This document shows, piece by piece, positions 24,508 through 35,239 of a stretch of 51,631 nucleotides of DNA (positions within the stretch are counted from its first letter, which is position 1; the number at the start of each line of letters is the position of its first letter). The stretch comes from Brevinema andersonii (lineage in GTDB: Bacteria > Spirochaetota > DYKD01). Made by a program: the position numbers and the translations under genes. A model generated the notes under the pieces. It searched no databases, had not been told where the DNA came from, and was given only the letters and a program-made list of their open reading frames with translations. Where the stretch lies: NCBI GenBank assembly GCA_020722765.1, contig DYKD01000016.1:1-51631 (forward strand), read 5' to 3'.

Positions 24508-24604
24508 AGGGATAAATTGAAGCAGGTTAAACACCATAAAAAAATTTAGGACTATACATGCTATATCATTTGAATTATTCGGCTTGTCAATTAACTTGAA
24601 AGGG

Positions 24605-25408
24605 ATGATACAGTTTTTTTTGTTCCTTCTATTATTATTTTTCAGTTGTAATATTCATTCCTTATATATAAAAAAGGCAACAGAAAGCTCCTTGCCAGTT
24701 GATGATACAGTTCAAGTCCAAGGCTTATTTAGGGAATGGAACGTTTATGAAAGCAGTATGAGGGAAGAGACGATTACACCCTTAGAAGCTATGACTGTGT
24801 TCACGTCACTGTATAGAAGAATAAAACATTATGGTTCTGGTTTCAGTTTTCAGGATGATGCCATCTGGGCTTTCCCTGTAGTTGGCTCAACCATTGATAA
24901 TGTCTATGAAAATGACTATCAGCCAGATTCATATTATGGAAGCTCGTCTGTAAGAGGATATACTTATTTTGATGCTAAAAAACATGGCGGGCATCCAGCT
25001 TATGACATTTTTGCTTATGATAAAAATCAGGATCTCCTTGATGATAGGACAGGAAAAACGATTCTGGTTTTAGCACCTGTTGATTTGTTGATTTTGACTG
25101 CACATCAGGAATGGAATACAAATTCAAGGATGCGGGGAGGACGTTATATTTGGGGAATTGATACGTCAAAGGACTTGCTCTATTATTTCGCACATTTGAA
25201 TGATCTTATCGTGGTGCCTGGACAGTTCGTGCCAAAAGGGACTGTCATTGCATCTATGGGGAGGACTGGTAAAAATGCCTGGGCAGCGCGGTCTCCAACA
25301 CACCTTCATCTTATGTTGCTTAAGGTGAACGGAACGAATGTTAGCCCTGTCAATTTTTATGACAAGCTGGTTTCCTCAATCCCTGTACCTATACAGGTAG
25401 CAGAGTAG
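24605..25408 (+). CDS. secreted M23-like (LytM) peptidase
   Basis: From ATG 24605 the protein has 267 residues; a TTG at 24584 would add seven, and neither start has a well-placed Shine-Dalgarno. The N-terminus is a strongly hydrophobic signal or anchor (FFLFLLLLFFSC) with a weak lipobox. The M23 features are a zinc-ligand segment HPAYDIFAYD, the mid-domain GRYIWGID and YFAHLND, and a closing HLHLML. M23 enzymes cut peptidoglycan crosslinks, and the HxxxD and HxH ligands appear intact, so activity is plausible. The mature N-terminal ~90 residues are not recognised. Confidence 0.75.
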   Translation: MIQFFLFLLLLFFSCNIHSLYIKKATESSLPVDDTVQVQGLFREWNVYESSMREETITPLEAMTVFTSLYRRIKHYGSGFSFQDDAIWAFPVVGSTIDNVYENDYQPDSYYGSSSVRGYTYFDAKKHGGHPAYDIFAYDKNQDLLDDRTGKTILVLAPVDLLILTAHQEWNTNSRMRGGRYIWGIDTSKDLLYYFAHLNDLIVVPGQFVPKGTVIASMGRTGKNAWAARSPTHLHLMLLKVNGTNVSPVNFYDKLVSSIPVPIQVAE

Positions 25409-25416
25409 GTGTTGCT

Positions 25417-26163
25417 TTATTTGTGGCTGGGACGGGAATGCCTTTTTTTAACGTGTTTTCCCCTTTGAGCAACATGAAGTGGCTTCCTTTTTTCCCTGTG
25501 TGAAAAATAAAGAAGTAAAAAAATTATGGTAATACTGAGGAGTGCTATCACTATTATGAGGAAAATATTTGTTTTGTCTGTATCTGGGTTGATTATGACC
25601 TGTGTTCTAAAAGTGACTGCATTCGGTTGTGAAAAAGTATTTTGTGCAACATCTTTCTTCCCCTGAGGCTGGATAGTTTTTTGAGAAGATGGGAGGGGAG
25701 ATGTGTAAAACTTGAGATTGTCAATTTTTGTAATGTAAATTTGCTTGTTGTTCCTGTTTTGTGGGATTTCGATGACATAATCATTTAGCGTTATAAAGTC
25801 TGATATGTAAAACTTCCTGTTATCTTTTGTTGTGATGGCATATTTGAGAAGAAGTTTCGCCCTGATATTGTTTGAAACATCAACATATTTGGAAGGTCCT
25901 GTATTAGGTGTTAATCTGCTTATGTCCTTAATGTTGGCAAGACTGATTTTCCCTGTTGTTGCAGGCTCAAGTATAAATGTCTCTTTTTCACCATCTGCGT
26001 TAACAGTTTCATATATGTCTTGCCGCCATTCAATCTGTCCAGTACGTGAAATCAGCACCCCCTCATAGGCGAACCCATCAACAGTCTTTATGGATCCGAA
26101 GTGCTCCCAGGAAAAAAGAAGGGAACCGTATAATATGAGTATTAGGAATATGGTTTTTATCAT
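25417..26163 (-). CDS. single-pass membrane protein, unknown function
   Basis: The protein has 248 residues. A signal peptide covers about residues 1-18. A beta-rich extracytoplasmic domain contains IKTVDGFAYEGVLISRTGQI. A polar linker leads to a C-terminal transmembrane helix (about 200-222, IFLIIVIALLSITII), and a very basic tail rich in K, R and H ends the protein. Its start overlaps the stop of the vWA gene by ATGA, so the two are coupled and may form a complex across the inner membrane (inference). I do not recognise the family. Confidence 0.65.
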   Translation of the reverse strand: MIKTIFLILILYGSLLFSWEHFGSIKTVDGFAYEGVLISRTGQIEWRQDIYETVNADGEKETFILEPATTGKISLANIKDISRLTPNTGPSKYVDVSNNIRAKLLLKYAITTKDNRKFYISDFITLNDYVIEIPQNRNNKQIYITKIDNLKFYTSPLPSSQKTIQPQGKKDVAQNTFSQPNAVTFRTQVIINPDTDKTNIFLIIVIALLSITIIFLLLYFSHREKRKPLHVAQRGKHVKKRHSRPSHK

Positions 26164-28034
26164 TGTGTCACCTTTGTCTGTCCAGACAAGGAGTCCAGTC
26201 GTTCTTTTTCTTTGTCAATATATTCAAATTTCGTTTTCAAGAAATCGATGATCTCAGTGTTTGCTTTTTTGATGTTGTTTTGGATCTCAGTGATTGTCTC
26301 TTTCTGTTTCTGTATGTTTTCCATCTGGAGGGAAAGTGTTTTTTCCTTCGCTTCTATGGCCTTTTTTCTTTCTTGGAGGGATTTTTCCGTTTTTTCGAGA
26401 TTTTGGTTTTTCAGTTCCAGTTCGGATTTCATTTTTTCAAGGTCAGATAATCGTGTTGCGTACTCTTTTTCCTTGCTGTCCAATGACTGCACCCTTTGGA
26501 GCAACTCGTTTTTCTGGTTTTCTATTTCAATTTTTTTCTGTTCCATTTCAGCCTGGGCTGAGGCGATTTCCTTTTTTTGAAGCTGGATGATCTCTGTTTC
26601 AGCTTTTGTTGCTGCTGTCTGCCTGAAAACTTCGCCCTTTTTTTGTTCTTCTGGGGTAAGGTCAAATCCACGTTCATCTTTTTTAATATTAAGATCGACA
26701 CTGACTCTACCGGTCCTGTCTGCCAGTGACTTATATGTGATAATATACTGGTTTTCAATGATATTATGGAGTTTGAGATATAATTCCCGTAATTTTTCAG
26801 AGCTCGAAGCTTTAAAATAGATTCCATGGGTGAGTATTGCTACTTCATTCATCACCTTGTCATCAACACCACCAAACCCGATGGAATAGATGGGAACCGG
26901 ATATTCTTTGATTGAAGTAAGAGCATCTTCAAAAGTGATTTTTTGAAGCTCAGCTCTGGCTCCACGGACATCATTTTTTCCATCTGTGAGGAGGATGATT
27001 GCCTTGTCCCCTTTTTCATTGGAGAGGTCTTTCACAGCATATTGGAGGATGTTGTATAATCCTGTGCCTCGTCCAACCTGGAGACTGTTCAGTTTTGATA
27101 TGTATGATCTTTTGTTTGTTGTATAATCTCCCAATTCAAGGGAATCATAGTCAAAAGCGACTATTTTGACACGGTCATAAGGAGCCATTTTACCAATAAA
27201 CTCAATGGCTGCGGCTTTTGCTCTTGCAAAAGGCTGTCCTGTCTGTTTCCCGTTCAGTTCTTCAAGCATACTGGGGCTTCGGTCTATGACCAATAGGATA
27301 GTCATAGGAGCTGTTTTTAAATCGGTTGATTTTACTTTTTGTACTGAAGCCATGACCATGTTGCCGTTTTCCCTGATTTCAAAAAGTTCTGGAGGTAATG
27401 AAACGGGCTCCCCAGCATTGTTCACCACATTGACATTCAACTTCATTTCTGGAAAATTATCCTTATTGATCTGTATGATGCTCACTACATCAAAATTTGG
27501 TGTGATAATATCAACTCTGGGAAAGTTCCCAGCAGCCAGTGTTCTTACCATATTATTAAGATTGGAGACTACGGAGAGAGCATCGTTTTCTACGTCTTTA
27601 GCAGTTGCAAAATTTAATACACGCCGTGTTGTTGGGATGTTTTTCTTTTGTATGTCAATGAGTTGCACCTGAAGTTCATATTTCCCATTGGACTGTAGTG
27701 TCACCTTCCCTGTCAGTATGGATTCGACATTAAAGAGGGCTCCTTTCTGCATGACACCAGTAATATCATCGGATTGGAATCCTGATAGATCCAAGTTTTT
27801 TGCGGAATTCCTGGAAACAACGAAAACCTTATCCAAGACCTCCTGGTTTGCTGTGGCGATTCGGTCAAGTTCATCTGCAAGTGTTTTACCAGATAGGATG
27901 GAAGGTTCTGGGAAGTCAGATTCAAAGTCTGTAATTAGCATTTTCATCCTGCGCGCAACAGTGATATCGTCAGGATTTGCATGAACCATGTATGCGCATG
28001 CCAATGACAGTAATAATAAGAGAATTTTTTTCAT
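26160..28034 (-). CDS. periplasmic von Willebrand A domain protein with coiled coil
   Basis: The protein has 624 residues. A signal peptide (1-19) is followed by a CsgG-like domain (about 30-170; LFNVESILTGKV, LQVQLIDI). A vWA domain (about 240-430) has an intact MIDAS: DRSPS, a following Thr region, and LTDGKND. From ~480 to the end it is a long charged coiled coil (EIIQLQKKEIASAQAEME and onward). MIDAS domains bind ligands through a metal ion. The coil predicts oligomerisation or a reach across the periplasm. AGAGGT precedes the start. It is coupled by ATGA to the single-pass membrane protein downstream. Confidence 0.8.
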   Translation of the reverse strand: MKKILLLLLSLACAYMVHANPDDITVARRMKMLITDFESDFPEPSILSGKTLADELDRIATANQEVLDKVFVVSRNSAKNLDLSGFQSDDITGVMQKGALFNVESILTGKVTLQSNGKYELQVQLIDIQKKNIPTTRRVLNFATAKDVENDALSVVSNLNNMVRTLAAGNFPRVDIITPNFDVVSIIQINKDNFPEMKLNVNVVNNAGEPVSLPPELFEIRENGNMVMASVQKVKSTDLKTAPMTILLVIDRSPSMLEELNGKQTGQPFARAKAAAIEFIGKMAPYDRVKIVAFDYDSLELGDYTTNKRSYISKLNSLQVGRGTGLYNILQYAVKDLSNEKGDKAIILLTDGKNDVRGARAELQKITFEDALTSIKEYPVPIYSIGFGGVDDKVMNEVAILTHGIYFKASSSEKLRELYLKLHNIIENQYIITYKSLADRTGRVSVDLNIKKDERGFDLTPEEQKKGEVFRQTAATKAETEIIQLQKKEIASAQAEMEQKKIEIENQKNELLQRVQSLDSKEKEYATRLSDLEKMKSELELKNQNLEKTEKSLQERKKAIEAKEKTLSLQMENIQKQKETITEIQNNIKKANTEIIDFLKTKFEYIDKEKERLDSLSGQTKVTQ

Positions 28035-28107
28035 AAATAACCTCTGTAAGTGTTTCTATTAATTTACCTTTTCATCTTAAGGAAGTCAAATCAATTAAAG
28101 AGTGGTT

Positions 28108-28752
28108 TTATTTGACAGATTGTTTCTTAAAATAAACGCATGATTCTGTCAATGAGCATAAATGACAATGAGGATGGCGGGGAAGACAGATGTTTTGACC
28201 AAATTTTACAAATGCGGAGTTTATTCTACCCCAGTATTTTTTTGGAAAAATCCTCATCAGGTTTTTTTCTGTCAGCTCGGCTGAATCGCTTTCTGGCGAA
28301 TTCAAACCTAAGTAGTTGGAAATCCTACGGACATGTGTGTCTACACATACGGCAGGAGTGCCTAAGACTTTTGAAAGGTATAGTGCTGCTGTTTTGGGTC
28401 CTATTCCAGGTAGATCGAGTAATTCTTCCTTGGTTTTTGGAAAAGGTCTGAGTGTAAGGATTTTTGCTGTGTTTTTTATGTTTCTGGCCTTTTCATTGAA
28501 AAATCCTGTTGGATGAATGATTTTGATCAGTTCGGATAATGGCATTTTATCCAGATCTGACGGTGTGGATATTTTTTTGAATAACACCTTGCAGATTTTT
28601 GCTGTTGTAGTGTCTTTTGTCCTTGCACTCAAGATGATTGAAATCATGATTTGAAAAGGATTCAGTTTTAGCTTGTCTTGGACAACCTCCAGCGGTATGG
28701 TGAATGTCCTAGTCATTTTTTCAATGGCGAGCAGGATTTTTACTGGCTCCAT
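28108..28752 (-). CDS. nth: endonuclease III
   Basis: The protein has 214 residues and is a base-excision-repair glycosylase/AP lyase for oxidised pyrimidines. The helix-hairpin-helix is LPGIGPKTA with the catalytic Lys, the catalytic Asp is in VDTHVRR, and the C-terminal [4Fe-4S] loop has spacing C-x6-C-x2-C-x5-C (CLPRHPHCHLCSLTESC). ATG 28752 gives a normal length; ATG 28716 is an alternative. It sits inside an operon of envelope genes. Confidence 0.93.
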   Translation of the reverse strand: MEPVKILLAIEKMTRTFTIPLEVVQDKLKLNPFQIMISIILSARTKDTTTAKICKVLFKKISTPSDLDKMPLSELIKIIHPTGFFNEKARNIKNTAKILTLRPFPKTKEELLDLPGIGPKTAALYLSKVLGTPAVCVDTHVRRISNYLGLNSPESDSAELTEKNLMRIFPKKYWGRINSAFVKFGQNICLPRHPHCHLCSLTESCVYFKKQSVK

Positions 28753-28768
28753 GAGATGGTCATTCTTT

Positions 28769-29788
28769 TTAACGCATGTTTTTTTTCTTAAGATTCAGCA
28801 TCATGTTCCAGTACATTTTTATATTGAAGTATCTGCCGAACTGCTTGAGTGCGAAAGCCTTTTCATAGAACTGTAGTGGGGAAAAATTAGATTCCAATTC
28901 CTTTATGCTGTTGAGAATGGTTTTCTTTATCTCTTCTGGAAGGCTCTCTTTAAGTTCATTGTCCTTGAGCATTTCGATGATTTCTTTGTATCCTGCAAGG
29001 TAATGATGTTTTATCCTGCTGATTTCCTTGTTTCTGTTCGTAGCGGGAGTCTCAGTGTAGTTCATTTTTTTTACATAGGGATCATATTCCTCAAGTTCTA
29101 TGAGAAATTCCTTGGCATCGATGTTTGTATCAAGATTGGCTATGATGACAAGTTTTGGTGTTTTCTCCTTATAAAGGGCCATGGCTTCCTTGAGAGTCGC
29201 CGCATCATAGATAGGAAAATCAAATGTTGCAAGAATGGCGAAAAGGTCTATCTTCAGTTTGAAATCTTTCACGTCAGGAATGAAAACCAACACTCCGTTT
29301 TCAGAATCAAGCACTTCAATGGGCTTGTCATGGTCAGCATATTTTTTCAAAATCTCTATGCTTTTTTCACTTGTCATGGAATTATACGGGATGATTTTGA
29401 TTCCTCTGCCAAGTCTCAGGTCGTAATAGATGACATCTTCCAAAATAATAAGCCTGCGTTTTTTTGTTGTCTTTGTGTTCATATTTACATATTCTTCAGT
29501 GGCTTGAATGATTTCCTTGATGGTCATGCTTGCATTGGGTTTGGGAAAATGTGCTGGGAATTTCTCCCTGAGTCTGTCCAAAATCATTTTGTTCGATAGG
29601 ATAGGAAACATGGTTATGTTCTGGCTTGTCAGGAATTGTATGTGTTCCTGGTTAAAGATCCCATGAAAATCGAATTTGTCCCTGAATGCTGAGATTAATT
29701 GTACGATTTTTGCGTCTTTCCGGTCATAATGGATTTCCATCTCGTCGATGTCTGGAAAATCCTTAAGGATGCTGATGTTTATTTCCAT
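28769..29788 (-). CDS. conserved-looking protein of unknown function
   Basis: The protein has 339 residues, with no signal or membrane segment. The N-terminus is acidic. A middle stretch (about 180-245) alternates beta-alpha like a degenerate receiver fold (LFAILATFDFPIYDAATLKE, KLVIIANLDT) but lacks a clear phosphorylation site. The C-terminal ~90 residues are helical. It starts four bases after pdxA and ends 16 bases before nth, so it is in the operon. I do not recognise a family. Confidence 0.6.
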   Translation of the reverse strand: MEINISILKDFPDIDEMEIHYDRKDAKIVQLISAFRDKFDFHGIFNQEHIQFLTSQNITMFPILSNKMILDRLREKFPAHFPKPNASMTIKEIIQATEEYVNMNTKTTKKRRLIILEDVIYYDLRLGRGIKIIPYNSMTSEKSIEILKKYADHDKPIEVLDSENGVLVFIPDVKDFKLKIDLFAILATFDFPIYDAATLKEAMALYKEKTPKLVIIANLDTNIDAKEFLIELEEYDPYVKKMNYTETPATNRNKEISRIKHHYLAGYKEIIEMLKDNELKESLPEEIKKTILNSIKELESNFSPLQFYEKAFALKQFGRYFNIKMYWNMMLNLKKKNMR

Positions 29789-29792
29789 GATT

Positions 29793-30791
29793 TCACCTGT
29801 ATAATTTTATTGCGTATTGGATGGCTGCATGAAGCCCTTTTATGTCTGCTTTGCCTTTTCCAGCGATGTCAAATGCAGTCCCATGATCAACAGATGTCCT
29901 GATGACTGGAAGACCTATTGTGATATTGACACTTTGTCCAATCACGCCACTTTTCACTGGGATGAGACCTTGGTCATGATACATGGCAAGGACAGTGTCA
30001 TATTTGCCTGTTTTCCAGCCTCTTGACCAAAAGCTGTCTGCGGGGAAAGGACCATCAACTTTCATCCCTTTGCTTTGACAATGCCTGATAGCTGGAAGAA
30101 TCTCGTTTTTTTCTTCATTGCCTAAAAGTCCGTTTTCACCGGCATGCGGGTTCAGACCAAGGATGGCAATGGAAGGGGCTTTGTTGATGTTACAGATGGG
30201 GTGATTGTTTAAGTTTTCAATTGATAGAATGATGTTGTTTTCGGTTATGTGTTGTGCCACTTTCTGAAGAGGTAGATGAGTAGTCACCAATCCGACGACG
30301 CCATGGGGACCTGCGAAAATCATGTTGAAGTGTTTTGTTTTAGTGGCATTCGCAATATATTCCGTATGACCAATGAAGTTTTTCAGACCGGCTCTTGCAA
30401 TGTTTTCTTTGCTTACAGGGTTGGTTGTAATGGCCATGAGGACTTTCTGCTGTGCTAATGTAATGGCCGTCTTGATGCTGGCAAGGGCAAGTGAGCCAGA
30501 GTCAATGTCTGGATGACCTGGATCATATTTGATAGGTCCCTGATAAGGTATATTGAAAACATTCAGCGCAGAGGGTTTGAGTTTTTCCTTGATCGGATCA
30601 GAAATGATGTTCAAAGGTATTTTTGTGTTATGGTGTTTCATGACCAAGGCCATCAGTTCCGCATTGGCAAGAACAAGAATTTTTGACCGAAGATCTTTAT
30701 GCTTCGTTAACAGGCTGATCGTTATTTCAGGACCAATACCGGCAGGATCACCAATGGTAAGGCCTATGGGAAGGTCAGGTTTCCTGTTCAT
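29793..30791 (-). CDS. pdxA: 4-hydroxythreonine-4-phosphate dehydrogenase
   Basis: The protein has 332 residues and works in the DXP-dependent pyridoxal phosphate pathway. The motifs are GDPAGIGPE near the N-terminus, TTNPVSKENI, FIGHTEYIA and the metal-binding AMYHDQGLIPVK. The length is normal. Its start overlaps the bactofilin 3' end by 17 bases. Dxs, which supplies the DXP co-substrate for this pathway, is encoded at 37.7 kb. PdxJ is not in this window. Confidence 0.93.
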   Translation of the reverse strand: MNRKPDLPIGLTIGDPAGIGPEITISLLTKHKDLRSKILVLANAELMALVMKHHNTKIPLNIISDPIKEKLKPSALNVFNIPYQGPIKYDPGHPDIDSGSLALASIKTAITLAQQKVLMAITTNPVSKENIARAGLKNFIGHTEYIANATKTKHFNMIFAGPHGVVGLVTTHLPLQKVAQHITENNIILSIENLNNHPICNINKAPSIAILGLNPHAGENGLLGNEEKNEILPAIRHCQSKGMKVDGPFPADSFWSRGWKTGKYDTVLAMYHDQGLIPVKSGVIGQSVNITIGLPVIRTSVDHGTAFDIAGKGKADIKGLHAAIQYAIKLYR

Positions 30792-31161
30792 AATTTTTCA
30801 GTATGTCCTGTTTTGCTATCTGTGGATTTTGGCTGTTCAAAATAAAACAATTTCCTTCAAAAACAACGCCTTTCTGTATGATAAGCTCTTTTGTATGGAT
30901 GTCTCCTAGAACCTGGGCTGTGGGCATAAGAATGAGTCTGTTCGACGAATAAATGTTTCCGATAACAATGCCTTCAATGATGATAAAATCAGCTTTTATA
31001 TCGGCCTTCACTTTTCCAGTTTTCCCAATATATAGTTCGGAGGCTTCCATGCAGGATCCTTCATAACGTCCGTCGATAGTGAGTACTTTTGTATGGAGGA
31101 ATTTTCCTGATGCAAAAGATTCTTTCGAGATGTAGCATTTGAAAGCTTCTGGTCTGCTCAT
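30775..31161 (-). CDS. bactofilin
   Basis: The protein has 128 residues with a central bactofilin beta-helix (residues ~20-105): repeated short hydrophobic strands with turn glycines (IDGRYEGS, ADIKADFIIIEG, ADF/IVIGNIYSS). It polymerises without nucleotide and commonly organises peptidoglycan-modifying enzymes or cell shape. It lies directly after a gene coupled by ATGA (31158-31161) to a TPR protein and ahead of pdxA. M23 peptidases are frequent bactofilin partners; one is encoded at 24.6 kb. Confidence 0.85.
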   Translation of the reverse strand: MSRPEAFKCYISKESFASGKFLHTKVLTIDGRYEGSCMEASELYIGKTGKVKADIKADFIIIEGIVIGNIYSSNRLILMPTAQVLGDIHTKELIIQKGVVFEGNCFILNSQNPQIAKQDILKNYEQET

Positions 31162-31958
31162 TTTGGTTTCCCTTTTTTCGAGAAAAGCCTTGGTAATTTT
31201 ACATGGTCCAGTGTTTCTTCCAGGAATTGGCTTGCCAGGGTGATTCCTTCAATGACTGTCTTATGATTCAGTTTTTTTTCTCCATAAAGCTTGTCAAATT
31301 CAAGTGGGTCTGAAGGATTCATGATGATATTCCCATGGTTGTTATAATCGGAAATGAGCATATCCAGGAATTCCTTCATGTCATGGAAAAAATCAACAGT
31401 CTCCATGATGACTGCTCGTTCTTGCTTTAAGGCCATTGTCTGGAGCTGTTTTTTGAATTCTTCACGTGGCGTATTACCCATCTGATCCAGTATTTTTGTG
31501 TATTCTTTGATTCCGCGTTTGATGTTTTCAAGGATATTGAGGAAGGCATCACGTTTGTTGGAATGGGCGTAGTCCAATGTAAGATGATAATCGCTCAATA
31601 CTCCCCAGTATTCATTCTCAAACTCTACAATGGAAGAGGCTACGAAATTTATGTCATCACTTTCTGAAAGGGGATGGACAGGCTGTATTCCAGATGTCTG
31701 TATCAGCTCATAGTGTTTGGATTCTGCTGCAGGGCTTTCTTTCTTGTCTTGGGCTGATGGGTCGTCTGTGAAATCAATAGACCCATCATCGGATCCCGCT
31801 TTCCCCTCATTGGAATCGCCTTGTATCTTCGAAATTTCCAGCTTAGCTTCCTTTATCTGCCGAAAGACACGGATACGCTGTTCCTCGTTAGGGCTTGTTT
31901 TCATGACCCCTTCGAGTTTCTTGATTATGACCTGCCACTCTTCAATGGATTTGGCCAT
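31158..31958 (-). CDS. soluble helical protein of the bactofilin operon, unknown function
   Basis: The protein has 266 residues. ATG 31958 is chosen because AGGAA lies seven bases upstream; a longer reading from 32009 runs deeper into the TPR gene. The N-terminal ~50 residues are helical (SIEEWQVIIKKLEGVMKT), then comes an acidic linker (SDDGSIDFTDDPSAQDKKE) and a C-terminal helical domain. There is no signal peptide. I do not recognise a family. It overlaps the TPR gene by 17 bases and bactofilin by ATGA, so the three are probably made in matched amounts. Confidence 0.65.
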   Translation of the reverse strand: MAKSIEEWQVIIKKLEGVMKTSPNEEQRIRVFRQIKEAKLEISKIQGDSNEGKAGSDDGSIDFTDDPSAQDKKESPAAESKHYELIQTSGIQPVHPLSESDDINFVASSIVEFENEYWGVLSDYHLTLDYAHSNKRDAFLNILENIKRGIKEYTKILDQMGNTPREEFKKQLQTMALKQERAVIMETVDFFHDMKEFLDMLISDYNNHGNIIMNPSDPLEFDKLYGEKKLNHKTVIEGITLASQFLEETLDHVKLPRLFSKKGKPK

Positions 31959-33894
31959 CTGTAGTTCCTTCCTTGATAAGTTCCTTGTACTTTGCATAGT
32001 ACTTGACACTGTTTTCCTGGTTTATCTTCTTATACAGGAGTGCAAGGTTATAATTTGTCTGTACAGATTCAGGGTTGATCTGTAATGCTTCATGGAAATA
32101 TTTTTTGGCTTTCTTGAATTCAGCACGTTCGGAATGGATGACTCCGATGTTATTGTACGCATCCAGATTCTTGCTGTTGATTTCAAGGATTTTATGGTAG
32201 TAGGAGAGCGCATCATCAAGCTGGTTCAATCCATAATAGCAGTATGCCATGTCACGGAACAAGGTCTCGCTCTTCTGTTTTGAATCTTCAAGCCTTATGA
32301 AATAATAGAGGGCTTCCTTGAAATCCTTGAGTTTCATATAAGCCTTGCCAAGAGAGGGATACAGATCCATCTTGCCAGGATGACTTTCATGGACATCGGC
32401 CAGTATTTTTCTGGAAGCCTCTTCATCTCCAGAATAGGTGTTCCATACACCAAGCAGAATCCGTATCTTGGCATCTGTAGGCCATTTTGACTTAAGTTGG
32501 TCGATGCGGTCTTTGGCAGAATCGAGGTTTTTATCATCCATATCAAGTTGTGCGAGTTGCATGAGCGCATCTTTCCCTGAAGGATAGATCTCGTGTGATT
32601 TTTGGAATGCATTTCGTGCTTCAAGGAGATTCTGGTGGTTGAGCATTAATTCGCCTAATGCATCATACATCCTGAAATCCTTAACTCTCTGATCACAGAT
32701 TGTCTTGATCATCTCTGAAAGTGAGATGAAATCATTGTGACTGAATTCCGTGGTTCGTATATAACTGATGCAGGTTTCAGCATCCAGTGTTGCCACGTTC
32801 CGTATGTCTTCGAATATTTTTCTGTTTTGTGCGGATTGGCTTATCTGTGCATTAAGGGTGATGAGCCGTGCCAGAATATCCTGGTCCCTATTGCCTGACT
32901 GATAAAGTTTCTGGTAACGGGTAAGGGCTTCCTTGTTTTTTCCACGAAGCTCGTCCATCAACCCAAGATAGAATTGGGCTTGGCTGTTTTCAGGGATGTT
33001 ATGAAGCTCCTCCTGGATTTCTTCTGCTTTTGAAATAAATCCTTGGAGGGAGAAAATATATCCGAGCATCGCCTTGTATGACACATCAATCTTGAGCTCC
33101 ATCATTTTTCTGCATTCAATCTCAGCTTTTTTGTAGTTTTCCTGCCGTAGAAGGATGTTAACGAGAATCTCCCGCGCTTCAATTTCACCAGGATACTTTT
33201 CAAGGTAAGATTCCAGCTCAGAAAGAGTCTCGTCATCCCTGTGCATCAGTGCTAAAAGTCGGATATGAAAGAAGTGGTATTCTTTGTTTTGGGGATAAAA
33301 GGAAAGGGTTTTTGTCAGTATTTCTTCAAGTGCCCCGAAATTTCTCATTCCTAAGGCATAGATCATTTTTTTTTGATAATAATCAAGAGGGAACTGATAG
33401 GAATACCTGGTTGCAAGTTTTTCAATCCGTTCGAGCTGTTCTAATAATAATGAGAATCTTTTCTCGGTTTCATAGGAGAGGTCAACCTGCTTTGATGAGA
33501 AATCCAGGTTCTGTGGGAAGTTTTGTTTTACAAGTACCAGAAAATCAGTTACAAGGTATTCTTTTGTAAGAAAAACAAGCTCTTTATTCTCTATAAGCAG
33601 TGTACTTCCTTCTTGCTCTGGATTTTCAGGAATGACGTTTTGTGAATGGGAATGGCTTTCTGAAAGAATCCTGTTTTTTTCCTGTAAAAGCAAAGAGGCT
33701 TTTTTAGTGAGTTCTTCCTCTTTTTTTTTCAGTTCTTCGATTTCAAGAGATAGAGCTGTCTTTTCACTGTTTTTGTTTTTCAAAAGGATGATCAGGAAAA
33801 TGAATGTCAGAACAAAAAGAGTTGCCGGAATAATCCAAAAAATATTTGGATTACTGTTTTGGAGGAGAAATGAGGTTATTTGTTTAAACAACAC
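31942..33894 (-). CDS. membrane-anchored TPR protein
   Basis: The protein has 650 residues from GTG 33894, which has AGGGAG five bases upstream. One transmembrane helix (about 18-38) is followed by a coiled coil (about 45-75). From ~180 to the end there are many tetratricopeptide repeats, clearest at the C-terminus (AYNNIGVIHSERAEFKKAKK, TNYNLALLYKKINQ). It probably scaffolds a membrane complex. It is the promoter-proximal gene of the TPR-unknown-bactofilin-pdxA-unknown-nth operon. Confidence 0.8.
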   Translation of the reverse strand: MLFKQITSFLLQNSNPNIFWIIPATLFVLTFIFLIILLKNKNSEKTALSLEIEELKKKEEELTKKASLLLQEKNRILSESHSHSQNVIPENPEQEGSTLLIENKELVFLTKEYLVTDFLVLVKQNFPQNLDFSSKQVDLSYETEKRFSLLLEQLERIEKLATRYSYQFPLDYYQKKMIYALGMRNFGALEEILTKTLSFYPQNKEYHFFHIRLLALMHRDDETLSELESYLEKYPGEIEAREILVNILLRQENYKKAEIECRKMMELKIDVSYKAMLGYIFSLQGFISKAEEIQEELHNIPENSQAQFYLGLMDELRGKNKEALTRYQKLYQSGNRDQDILARLITLNAQISQSAQNRKIFEDIRNVATLDAETCISYIRTTEFSHNDFISLSEMIKTICDQRVKDFRMYDALGELMLNHQNLLEARNAFQKSHEIYPSGKDALMQLAQLDMDDKNLDSAKDRIDQLKSKWPTDAKIRILLGVWNTYSGDEEASRKILADVHESHPGKMDLYPSLGKAYMKLKDFKEALYYFIRLEDSKQKSETLFRDMAYCYYGLNQLDDALSYYHKILEINSKNLDAYNNIGVIHSERAEFKKAKKYFHEALQINPESVQTNYNLALLYKKINQENSVKYYAKYKELIKEGTTDGQIH

Positions 33895-34198: not shown

Positions 34199-34564
34199 AT
34201 GGATATCATGGATATCAGAAGCAGTTATGAAAGACGTGAAACAGATTGTGATCGGAGAGATTATCCCCGTATCCCTTTGACGGACAGACGTTCTTTAATG
34301 TTAAATGAGGCATTATTACGTCAGATGCAGGTTTATGGTTTTTCCCAGGAAAAACGCGCTTTTTATATGAGGGAAATCTATGGGTTAATCTCGTTTTCAA
34401 GAAGACATCCAAAAGGAATAAGGAAAAGGCATGTTGAAATGTATTTGATGCATAGGATTGAGCATGATCATGCGACATTGCAGGAAACTGAGGAAGCTTT
34501 GGAAGCATGTAAGTTTCTTCTTGAAAGCATATATGGGATGAATGTATTCAAGAATGCAAGTTGA
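34199..34564 (+). CDS. stand-alone integrase SAM-like (core-binding) domain protein
   Basis: The protein has 121 residues with a strong GGAGG Shine-Dalgarno. Residues ~33-115 follow the N-terminal core-binding pattern of tyrosine recombinases and integron integrases: LLRQMQVYGFSQEKRAFYMR, then GLISFSRRHP and HVEMYLMHR. No catalytic domain (R-HxxR-Y) follows; the frame ends at 34564 and the next sequence is unrelated. The first 30 residues are charged and arginine-rich (RRETDCDRRD) and unlike usual integrases. It may be a decayed integrase or a repurposed DNA-binding protein; the good ribosome-binding site favours expression. Confidence 0.6.
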   Translation: MDIMDIRSSYERRETDCDRRDYPRIPLTDRRSLMLNEALLRQMQVYGFSQEKRAFYMREIYGLISFSRRHPKGIRKRHVEMYLMHRIEHDHATLQETEEALEACKFLLESIYGMNVFKNAS

Positions 34565-34605
34565 ACAATTTTGACATTCTCATATTCCTCCTATAAAATA
34601 GGGAT

Positions 34606-35239
34606 ATGTCAGAAAATCACGTAGTCGTATTTTTGGATATTCCAGAACGGAGGACTGCCGTAATTGTATTTGCAGTCTCTTTTTGTACTGCCGATTTCTG
34701 GGATGTGCAAAGTATGATGGTGGGTATACGGGATCAGTTTGAAAAAAGGGTGATTCTTATTGCAGGAGGACCTCACCCCACAGGCGATGTTGAAGGAACT
34801 TTGAAATTAGGATTTGATTATGTTGTCCAGGGTGAGGGAGAATCTGCGTTCATTGATAATTGTAAAAGTATCATGCATGATTCAGCAGATCTGTCCTCTC
34901 TGTCAAAAGGTTCATACTGTAAAGCCAATCAGACTCCATGTTCTGTATTTGCTTTAGATGATTATCCGTCTTTCGCGTTTAAATCAAAACGCTTTAATTC
35001 CATAGAAATTACAAGAGGATGTCCCTTTGCTTGCAAGTTTTGTCAGACCTCGCGGCTTCAAGGACGGAAAATGAGACATTACGGAGTATGCAAATGCTCC
35101 TGCTGGCCGGATAAACAGGATAAGCAAAGAAATAATCAATAAAATCCAGCCCAAGCGTAAGTTTTATGGGCAATGTACGGTTCAGGAACATTTGGCTAAC
35201 AGGATTGCTGGATATTTGACGAATAGAGCCATTTTCTAA
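34606..35239 (+). pseudogene. decayed B12-binding radical SAM gene (MJ_1487-like)
   Basis: The first frame (34606-35142) has a cobalamin-domain core (AVSFCTADFWDV, LIAGGPHPTGDVEGTLKLGF, VVQGEGE) and the radical SAM cysteines ITRGCPFACKFCQTSRLQGR, then diverges into unrelated residues. A +1-shifted frame continues as EYANAPAGRINRISK and ends PKRKFYGQC...QEHLANRIAGYL at 35239. That end resembles the C-terminus of the same family, from memory. About half of the radical SAM barrel is missing, and the N-terminus also appears shortened. An internal deletion with frameshift is the simplest reading. Confidence 0.6.

Follow-up and report, generated by a model that had tools for sequence, protein, structure and literature searches.

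A recurrent TPR–X–bactofilin–PdxA gene order in Spirochaetota suggests a bactofilin scaffold cassette with a candidate helical adaptor

Bactofilins set cell shape and the zones of wall growth, and to our knowledge the cytoplasmic partners of the spirochaete bactofilins are largely unknown. As far as the accessible text of three reports describes them, bactofilin polymers lie at the inner face of the membrane and recruit wall enzymes (PMC10945521, PMC13393453, PMC12448750). In Hyphomonas and Rhodospirillum, the bactofilin BacA is paired with the M23 endopeptidase LmdC, and the two genes form a small overlapping cluster like the one described here (available part of PMC10945521). Spirochaete examples, like ours, are BbbA, BbbF and BbbG of Borrelia, where two bactofilins are essential, BbbF and BbbG direct the zonal insertion of peptidoglycan and BbbG adjoins an M23 gene; the available part of that report mentions no link to PdxA or to a protein resembling the X described below (PMC13393453). 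LbbD of Leptospira, a spirochaete bactofilin which also stands beside an M23 gene, affects helical shape (available parts of PMC10945521 and PMC13393453).

The window, by which we mean the whole stretch of 51,631 nucleotides that was analysed, comes from a genome of 3.6 Mb in 371 contigs. Between 33894 and 25417 lie eight genes on the minus strand, which are met by a convergent peptidase gene; their coordinates, strands and order were re-checked and are correct:

31942..33894, minus strand: TPR protein with one N-terminal hydrophobic stretch
31158..31958, minus strand: X, an uncharacterised helical protein without a Pfam or NCBIfam family
30775..31161, minus strand: bactofilin of the X-linked clade, BacX (PF04519, E 4.8e-23)
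29793..30791, minus strand: PdxA, 4-hydroxythreonine-4-phosphate dehydrogenase (PF04166, E 1.2e-89)
28769..29788, minus strand: Y, with a receiver-like domain at about residues 164-266 (from a predicted model and alignments)
28108..28752, minus strand: Nth-like DNA glycosylase, a neighbour (HhH-GPD, E 2.5e-22)
26160..28034, minus strand: exported vWA/coiled-coil protein, a neighbour (VWA, PF00092, E 7.3e-14)
25417..26163, minus strand: TM-basic, a single-pass protein with a basic tail, a neighbour (signal-like start, stretch at 200)
24584..25408, plus strand: M23-family peptidase, a convergent neighbour (PF01551, E 1.3e-8)

We read the first four genes as a spirochaete bactofilin scaffold cassette with a helical adaptor, to which synthesis of pyridoxal phosphate (PLP) is coupled. 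We give this reading a probability of about 0.5 and no higher, because X and BacX also occur apart, their co-variation fails and the gene order may be ancestral.

The genes are as tightly packed as an earlier, sequence-only reading had held, with four of the junctions overlapping: TPR–X by 17 nt (counting X from its ATG), X–bactofilin by 4 nt, bactofilin–PdxA by 17 nt and vWA–TM-basic by 4 nt. That reading had rightly joined the last pair and described the TM-basic tail as very basic; the tail is rich in Lys, Arg and His. The remaining junctions are gaps of +4 nt (PdxA–Y), +16 nt (Y–Nth) and +73 nt (Nth–vWA). The start codon of X is probably the ATG at 31958 and not the GTG at 32009, because a GGAAGGA-type site precedes this ATG and the starts of relatives, judged by eye, agree with it. 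Upstream of the cassette is a decayed spot, where a fragment of a phage-type integrase N-terminus (PF13495) at 34199-35142 on the plus strand is followed by an apparent truncated radical-SAM gene (by eye).

The sequence-only reading had left X and Y unassigned, and neither has a Pfam family over cut-off or any NCBIfam family. For the window X the best Pfam match has an E-value of 0.14, below the cut-off, and for Y none was returned; across 28 members of X no Pfam family matches more than two (best E 0.0011). The predicted structure (mean pLDDT 84.7) has helices at residues 5-21 and 25-45, a low-confidence segment at 48-80 and long helices between 101 and 253, a model that describes a helical hairpin, a linker taken to be flexible and a four-helix bundle. 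It finds no Foldseek match in the PDB at 1e-3, and its best helical structural match (Z 10.1) is uninformative. Identification as a hemerythrin-like or other known bundle was considered and dropped, there being one weak Pfam match among the 28 members and no outstanding fold match. We propose that X is a family of its own, without known Pfam or NCBIfam identity, and a candidate bactofilin adaptor.

Among 60 genomes used for sequence comparison (the window's own and 59 relatives of the same phylum), X is matched in 38, its own included. A profile search extends this to a match in 112 of 198 Spirochaetota genomes, with X-type matches in at least 95 of the 198, counted among the matches listed and leaving weak ones unclassed. 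The rest of the listed matches belong to a separate spirochaete family of about 600 residues, the C-terminal part of which resembles X residues 110-255 (for example L147:1148-2938, L149:1672-3378 and L150:1368-3188); three members tested have no Pfam or NCBIfam name. In a pattern scan of named genomes, X was found at six loci, five in Spirochaetota records and one in a record named 'bacterium'.

We examined 86 X loci, the window included and 9 of the 95 left out, of which 82 could be read downstream. The order X–bactofilin–PdxA is found at 44 of these (14 family labels), X–bactofilin–other at 10, X–PdxA at 9 and neither gene at 19. A bactofilin thus lies directly downstream of X in 54 of the 82, and in 53 PdxA comes next after X or after the X–bactofilin pair. 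The former adjacency is this frequent although each of the 198 genomes, all of which have bactofilins, carries only one to eight of them. The window bactofilin itself is a clear family member (PF04519, 81.7 bits against a cut-off of 27.9, residues 10-105; 6e-7 against the PDB bactofilin 6ria). By eye, its start, MSRPEAFKC, is unlike the MFSKKKK motif, reported as a bactofilin membrane motif in the accessible part of PMC12448750. In a bactofilin tree, 54 X-linked rows fall on one side of a single branch and 41 others on the opposite side (support 96/98); this tree is built from few alignment columns with a warning of long branches from the tool, and the exact place of the window bactofilin is unsure because its row is long-branched.

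A profile of 18 X-linked bactofilins was then run on 40 genomes, comprising 29 with an X that lacks an adjacent bactofilin (28 readable loci and G183, cut by a contig end), nine without X and two X-linked controls. The scores separate, with a best match of at least 160 bits in 23 of the 40 genomes and the other matches listed at 141 or below. BacX stands elsewhere in 17 of the 29 genomes whose X has no adjacent bactofilin and is not found in the other 12. It is also present in four of the nine genomes without X. In the genome G075, the relatives of BacX all score low (best 84 bits, against 160 or more). Each protein occurs without the other, and therefore neither absolutely needs it. Mirror-tree analysis was tried as evidence of X–BacX binding and not used, as it is not robust to family sampling: across 42 loci the correlation is 0.72, but 0.27 is left when each family contributes a single locus (13 loci), and once family f30 is removed it equals that of X with PdxA.

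The pdxA gene had been taken for a passenger of the cluster. It is instead the most persistent neighbour of the BacX clade. PdxA directly follows BacX at 19 of the 20 readable BacX loci that are unlinked to X (21 such loci in all) and, with the 44 X-linked cases, at 63 of 74 readable loci in 21 family labels; because the pair recurs so often, and usually in overlapping frames, pdxA is no random passenger. Of 42 loci, 39 place PdxA at an approximate distance of -20 to +6 nt from BacX, and by the same approximate measure the frames overlap in 34 of the 42. Of seven non-BacX bactofilin loci returned by the profile search, six have an M23-like gene alongside and none has PdxA after the bactofilin. 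Eleven loci depart from the BacX–PdxA order: L303, and ten in families f3, f23 and f28 where BacX follows X. At three f28 loci an aminotransferase gene of cluster c49 follows BacX in the place of PdxA (L109:10270-11322, L196 and L199:6871-7941), PdxA standing elsewhere there; Pfam assigns this protein to class I/II in the two members tested, and it is not PdxA. We found no paper on a bactofilin gene with pdxA in overlapping frames, within a literature search for which subscription journals lay mostly outside reach.

The PdxA proteins of these loci look intact. That of the window scores 334.2 bits against TIGR00557 (cut-off 290.35), and histidine occupies all three of the columns which we take to be metal-binding in 69 of 69 aligned sequences, including the window and nine from X–PdxA loci without BacX. 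A degenerate enzyme was considered on the strength of a GHTE text pattern present in only 25 of 51 sequences, but the alignment shows the residues to be kept. An ordinary, intact PdxA, together with a PdxJ elsewhere in the same genome (L211, 11619-12341, by eye), means that PLP synthesis fully explains the gene, and this favours the strongest alternative, in which X, BacX and PdxA belong to an ancestral housekeeping operon, co-transcribed by descent and translationally coupled with no shared function, PdxA being carried along by a constitutive bactofilin gene. The weak tracking of BacX distances by PdxA distances (0.25) points the same way, and the conserved order may indeed be nothing more than ancestral operon inertia. 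Neutral adjacency, however, usually decays over such depth, which counts against this explanation: BacX and PdxA stay together across 21 family labels while the genes upstream differ between families. On balance we regard inheritance without shared function as unlikely, though a serious competitor to a functional cassette.

Upstream of X, the window has a TPR protein with hits to TPR-type families of NCBIfam; among the matches listed, no family exceeds its cut-off. Its N-terminal hydrophobic stretch is followed by basic residues, and from the sequence it is probably anchored in the membrane with its TPR part in the cytoplasm. At nine of the 86 loci, the window included and five family labels represented, X is directly preceded by a TPR-cluster gene. 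A search of the other 197 genomes at 1e-20 returned nothing for the window TPR protein, and it is therefore the position that is kept and not the sequence. The upstream genes at the 86 loci are FlaA–FlaA (11), FlaA–FlaA–TPR (3), TPR alone (6), an RpoN-like gene with FapA (6), a divergent M23 gene (11), a member of the transglycosylase cluster no more than three genes away (13), pairs of SPFH-like genes (5) and others (31). The 31 loci without a named upstream partner, like the 19 where neither bactofilin nor PdxA follows X, count against the scaffold reading. These labels rest on Pfam checks of six FlaA members and of one member each for FapA, transglycosylase and LysM–M23, with RpoN and SPFH assigned by eye. 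The SPFH-like pairs (stomatin-type) directly precede X at L092, L153, L155, L175 and L201, all members of one family and without BacX. As gene-order evidence, the FlaA pairs, FapA, M23, transglycosylase and TPR partners point to the cell wall and the periplasmic flagella.

The same neighbours raise the possibility that X acts mainly in the flagellar sheath or in motility, with FlaA or FapA as its chief partner, the bactofilin being recruited only sometimes. FlaA pairs lie upstream of X at 14 of the 86 loci, in seven family labels and three times with a TPR gene between, the FapA cluster adds its six, and at L107, L108, L178 and L204 X stands beside FlaA pairs in genomes without BacX. Most X loci, however, have no adjoining FlaA or FapA gene, and in eight genomes without X, the tandem FlaA pairs have neither X nor a bactofilin alongside. 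Nor is X found beside the tandem FlaA pair of the window's own genome (L210). FlaA is present in 195 of the 198 genomes, so that its co-occurrence with X is uninformative. A primarily flagellar role for X is accordingly improbable in our judgement, well behind a bactofilin scaffold with X as its adaptor.

Downstream of PdxA the arrangement is more variable. At the 41 X–BacX–PdxA loci that are readable, a small hydrophobic protein is encoded directly after PdxA in 20 and one gene further on in 7, and a relative of it, often low-scoring, follows 12 of the 19 X-unlinked BacX–PdxA pairs; the one member tested has no Pfam family (example L206:8014-8469). It may be an additional component of the cassette; the window does not have it, and there, as in G011, Y takes its slot. 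Y is matched in 15 of the 60 genomes, its own included. Outside the window it follows PdxA at L081 and L110; the PdxA that it follows in genome G024 is a piece on another contig. The Y model (AF2 pLDDT 91.2) resembles response-regulator receivers at residues 164-266, best DivK (VIA Z 12.8, rmsd 2.3, 97 residues), and a six-row Y profile aligns weakly to CheY (best E 0.039) with G at the phospho-acceptor Asp. None of the 8 rows aligned has Asp in that column, which holds A, G, T or M, the M row being gapped there. With a profile of 22 rows, the matches were mainly of chalcone-synthase type and fell elsewhere in Y, none better than E 0.016. The model thus predicts a receiver fold which, in contrast to DivK and CheY, is without the phospho-acceptor Asp and has extra N- and C-terminal parts. 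In four genomes Y also follows PrmC (by Pfam in three and by similarity in the fourth), and in one of them, G010 (L213:3255-6221) the order PrmC–Y–CheW–bactofilin occurs on one strand, with a bactofilin that scores low against the BacX profile.

The neighbours beyond Y behave differently. The Nth-like protein (TIGR01083, 144.6 bits, below the cut-off of 211.7) had been called a passenger, and it remains one: at the loci read, no copy adjoins the cassette. Outside the window's own genome, TM-basic finds no match among the 59 relatives. The vWA protein, in which a weak TolB_N-like N-terminal match (E 0.029) is followed by the VWA domain and a long coiled coil, is matched in 35 of the 60 genomes, in most cases through the VWA domain only. 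The coiled coil is shared by just two relatives, both in G012, on contigs other than that of its X locus and without an adjoining TM-basic gene; by eye they look like lipoproteins. The window M23 gene, cast earlier as the wall enzyme of the system, has its end over 5 kb away from the bactofilin gene, towards which it points, and we found no conserved link between the two. It is not supported as the orthologue of the X-linked M23 proteins; it has no LysM match, and the one X-linked M23 protein tested from a relative carries LysM.

The proposal that all eight genes form one system, with TPR, X, bactofilin, Y, vWA coil and TM-basic proteins bridging the envelope together with the M23 peptidase, drew on the compact row, the vWA–TM-basic overlap, the signal-like start of the vWA protein and a membrane-bound basic protein, and it is very improbable given that TM-basic occurs in 0 of 59 other genomes, that vWA–coil relatives are confined to G012, away from X, and that neither nth nor the window M23 is seen beside the cassette in the loci read elsewhere. 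Neighbourhood conservation in relatives, the check that had been suggested, gives co-occurrence for four or five of the genes and none for the other three. What survives of the one-system grouping is TPR, X, bactofilin and PdxA, with Y in three family labels, and what survives of the envelope scaffold is the TPR–X–bactofilin order, which recurs in other families of the phylum; Nth falls outside the grouping, and the vWA and TM-basic proteins, without a conserved link in relatives, fall outside both. From gene order, then, the eight-gene system is rejected, and TPR–X–bactofilin–PdxA(–Y) emerges as the conserved unit.

In the mechanism we favour, BacX would polymerise in the cytoplasm by the inner membrane, as bactofilins are known to do, and X would bind it as a dedicated adaptor that joins the polymer to a clade-specific envelope partner. 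Here that partner would be the membrane TPR protein, acting as an anchor; in relatives it would be the FlaA pairs, FapA, an M23 peptidase or a lytic transglycosylase. Such a scaffold could position cell-wall remodelling or functions of the periplasmic flagella along the cell. The divergent M23 gene at 11 of the 86 X loci recalls the BacA–LmdC pairs, whereas the fixed partners of the window bactofilin are X and PdxA, and the other M23 of its genome adjoins the other bactofilin. At that second bactofilin (L211:5994-9112), a divergent M23 gene with LysM-like repeats lies on one side and a TPR-like gene downstream, both by eye, and the PdxJ gene is on the same contig.

Translation of PdxA from a frame overlapping that of BacX would make PLP synthesis follow BacX expression, and this coupling could match PLP supply to growth. 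Class I/II aminotransferases use PLP, and the replacement of PdxA by such an enzyme in f28 fits a wiring between bactofilin and vitamin B6. A more specific version, in which PdxA is co-translated with BacX and perhaps held on the polymer via X, matching PLP supply to bactofilin-directed growth, is a speculation that we rate as a long shot. In Campylobacter, mutation of pdxA leads to loss of both PLP and flagellar motility (accessible part of PMC3735588), a result which shows only that PLP can limit flagella. In Bdellovibrio, the gene for the PLP-binding YggS adjoins that for DivIVA, the bactofilin gene lies elsewhere and is co-transcribed with parB, and the authors suggest that the level of PLP may signal to division (available text of PMC7186360). 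If PdxA were so held, PLP for wall precursors (for example D-alanine) or for flagellar modification would be matched in place and amount across much of the phylum. On the broader reading, X is a candidate bactofilin partner, widespread in the phylum and tied to a defined bactofilin subclade, and the cassette provides a way to test for a link between metabolism and cell shape.
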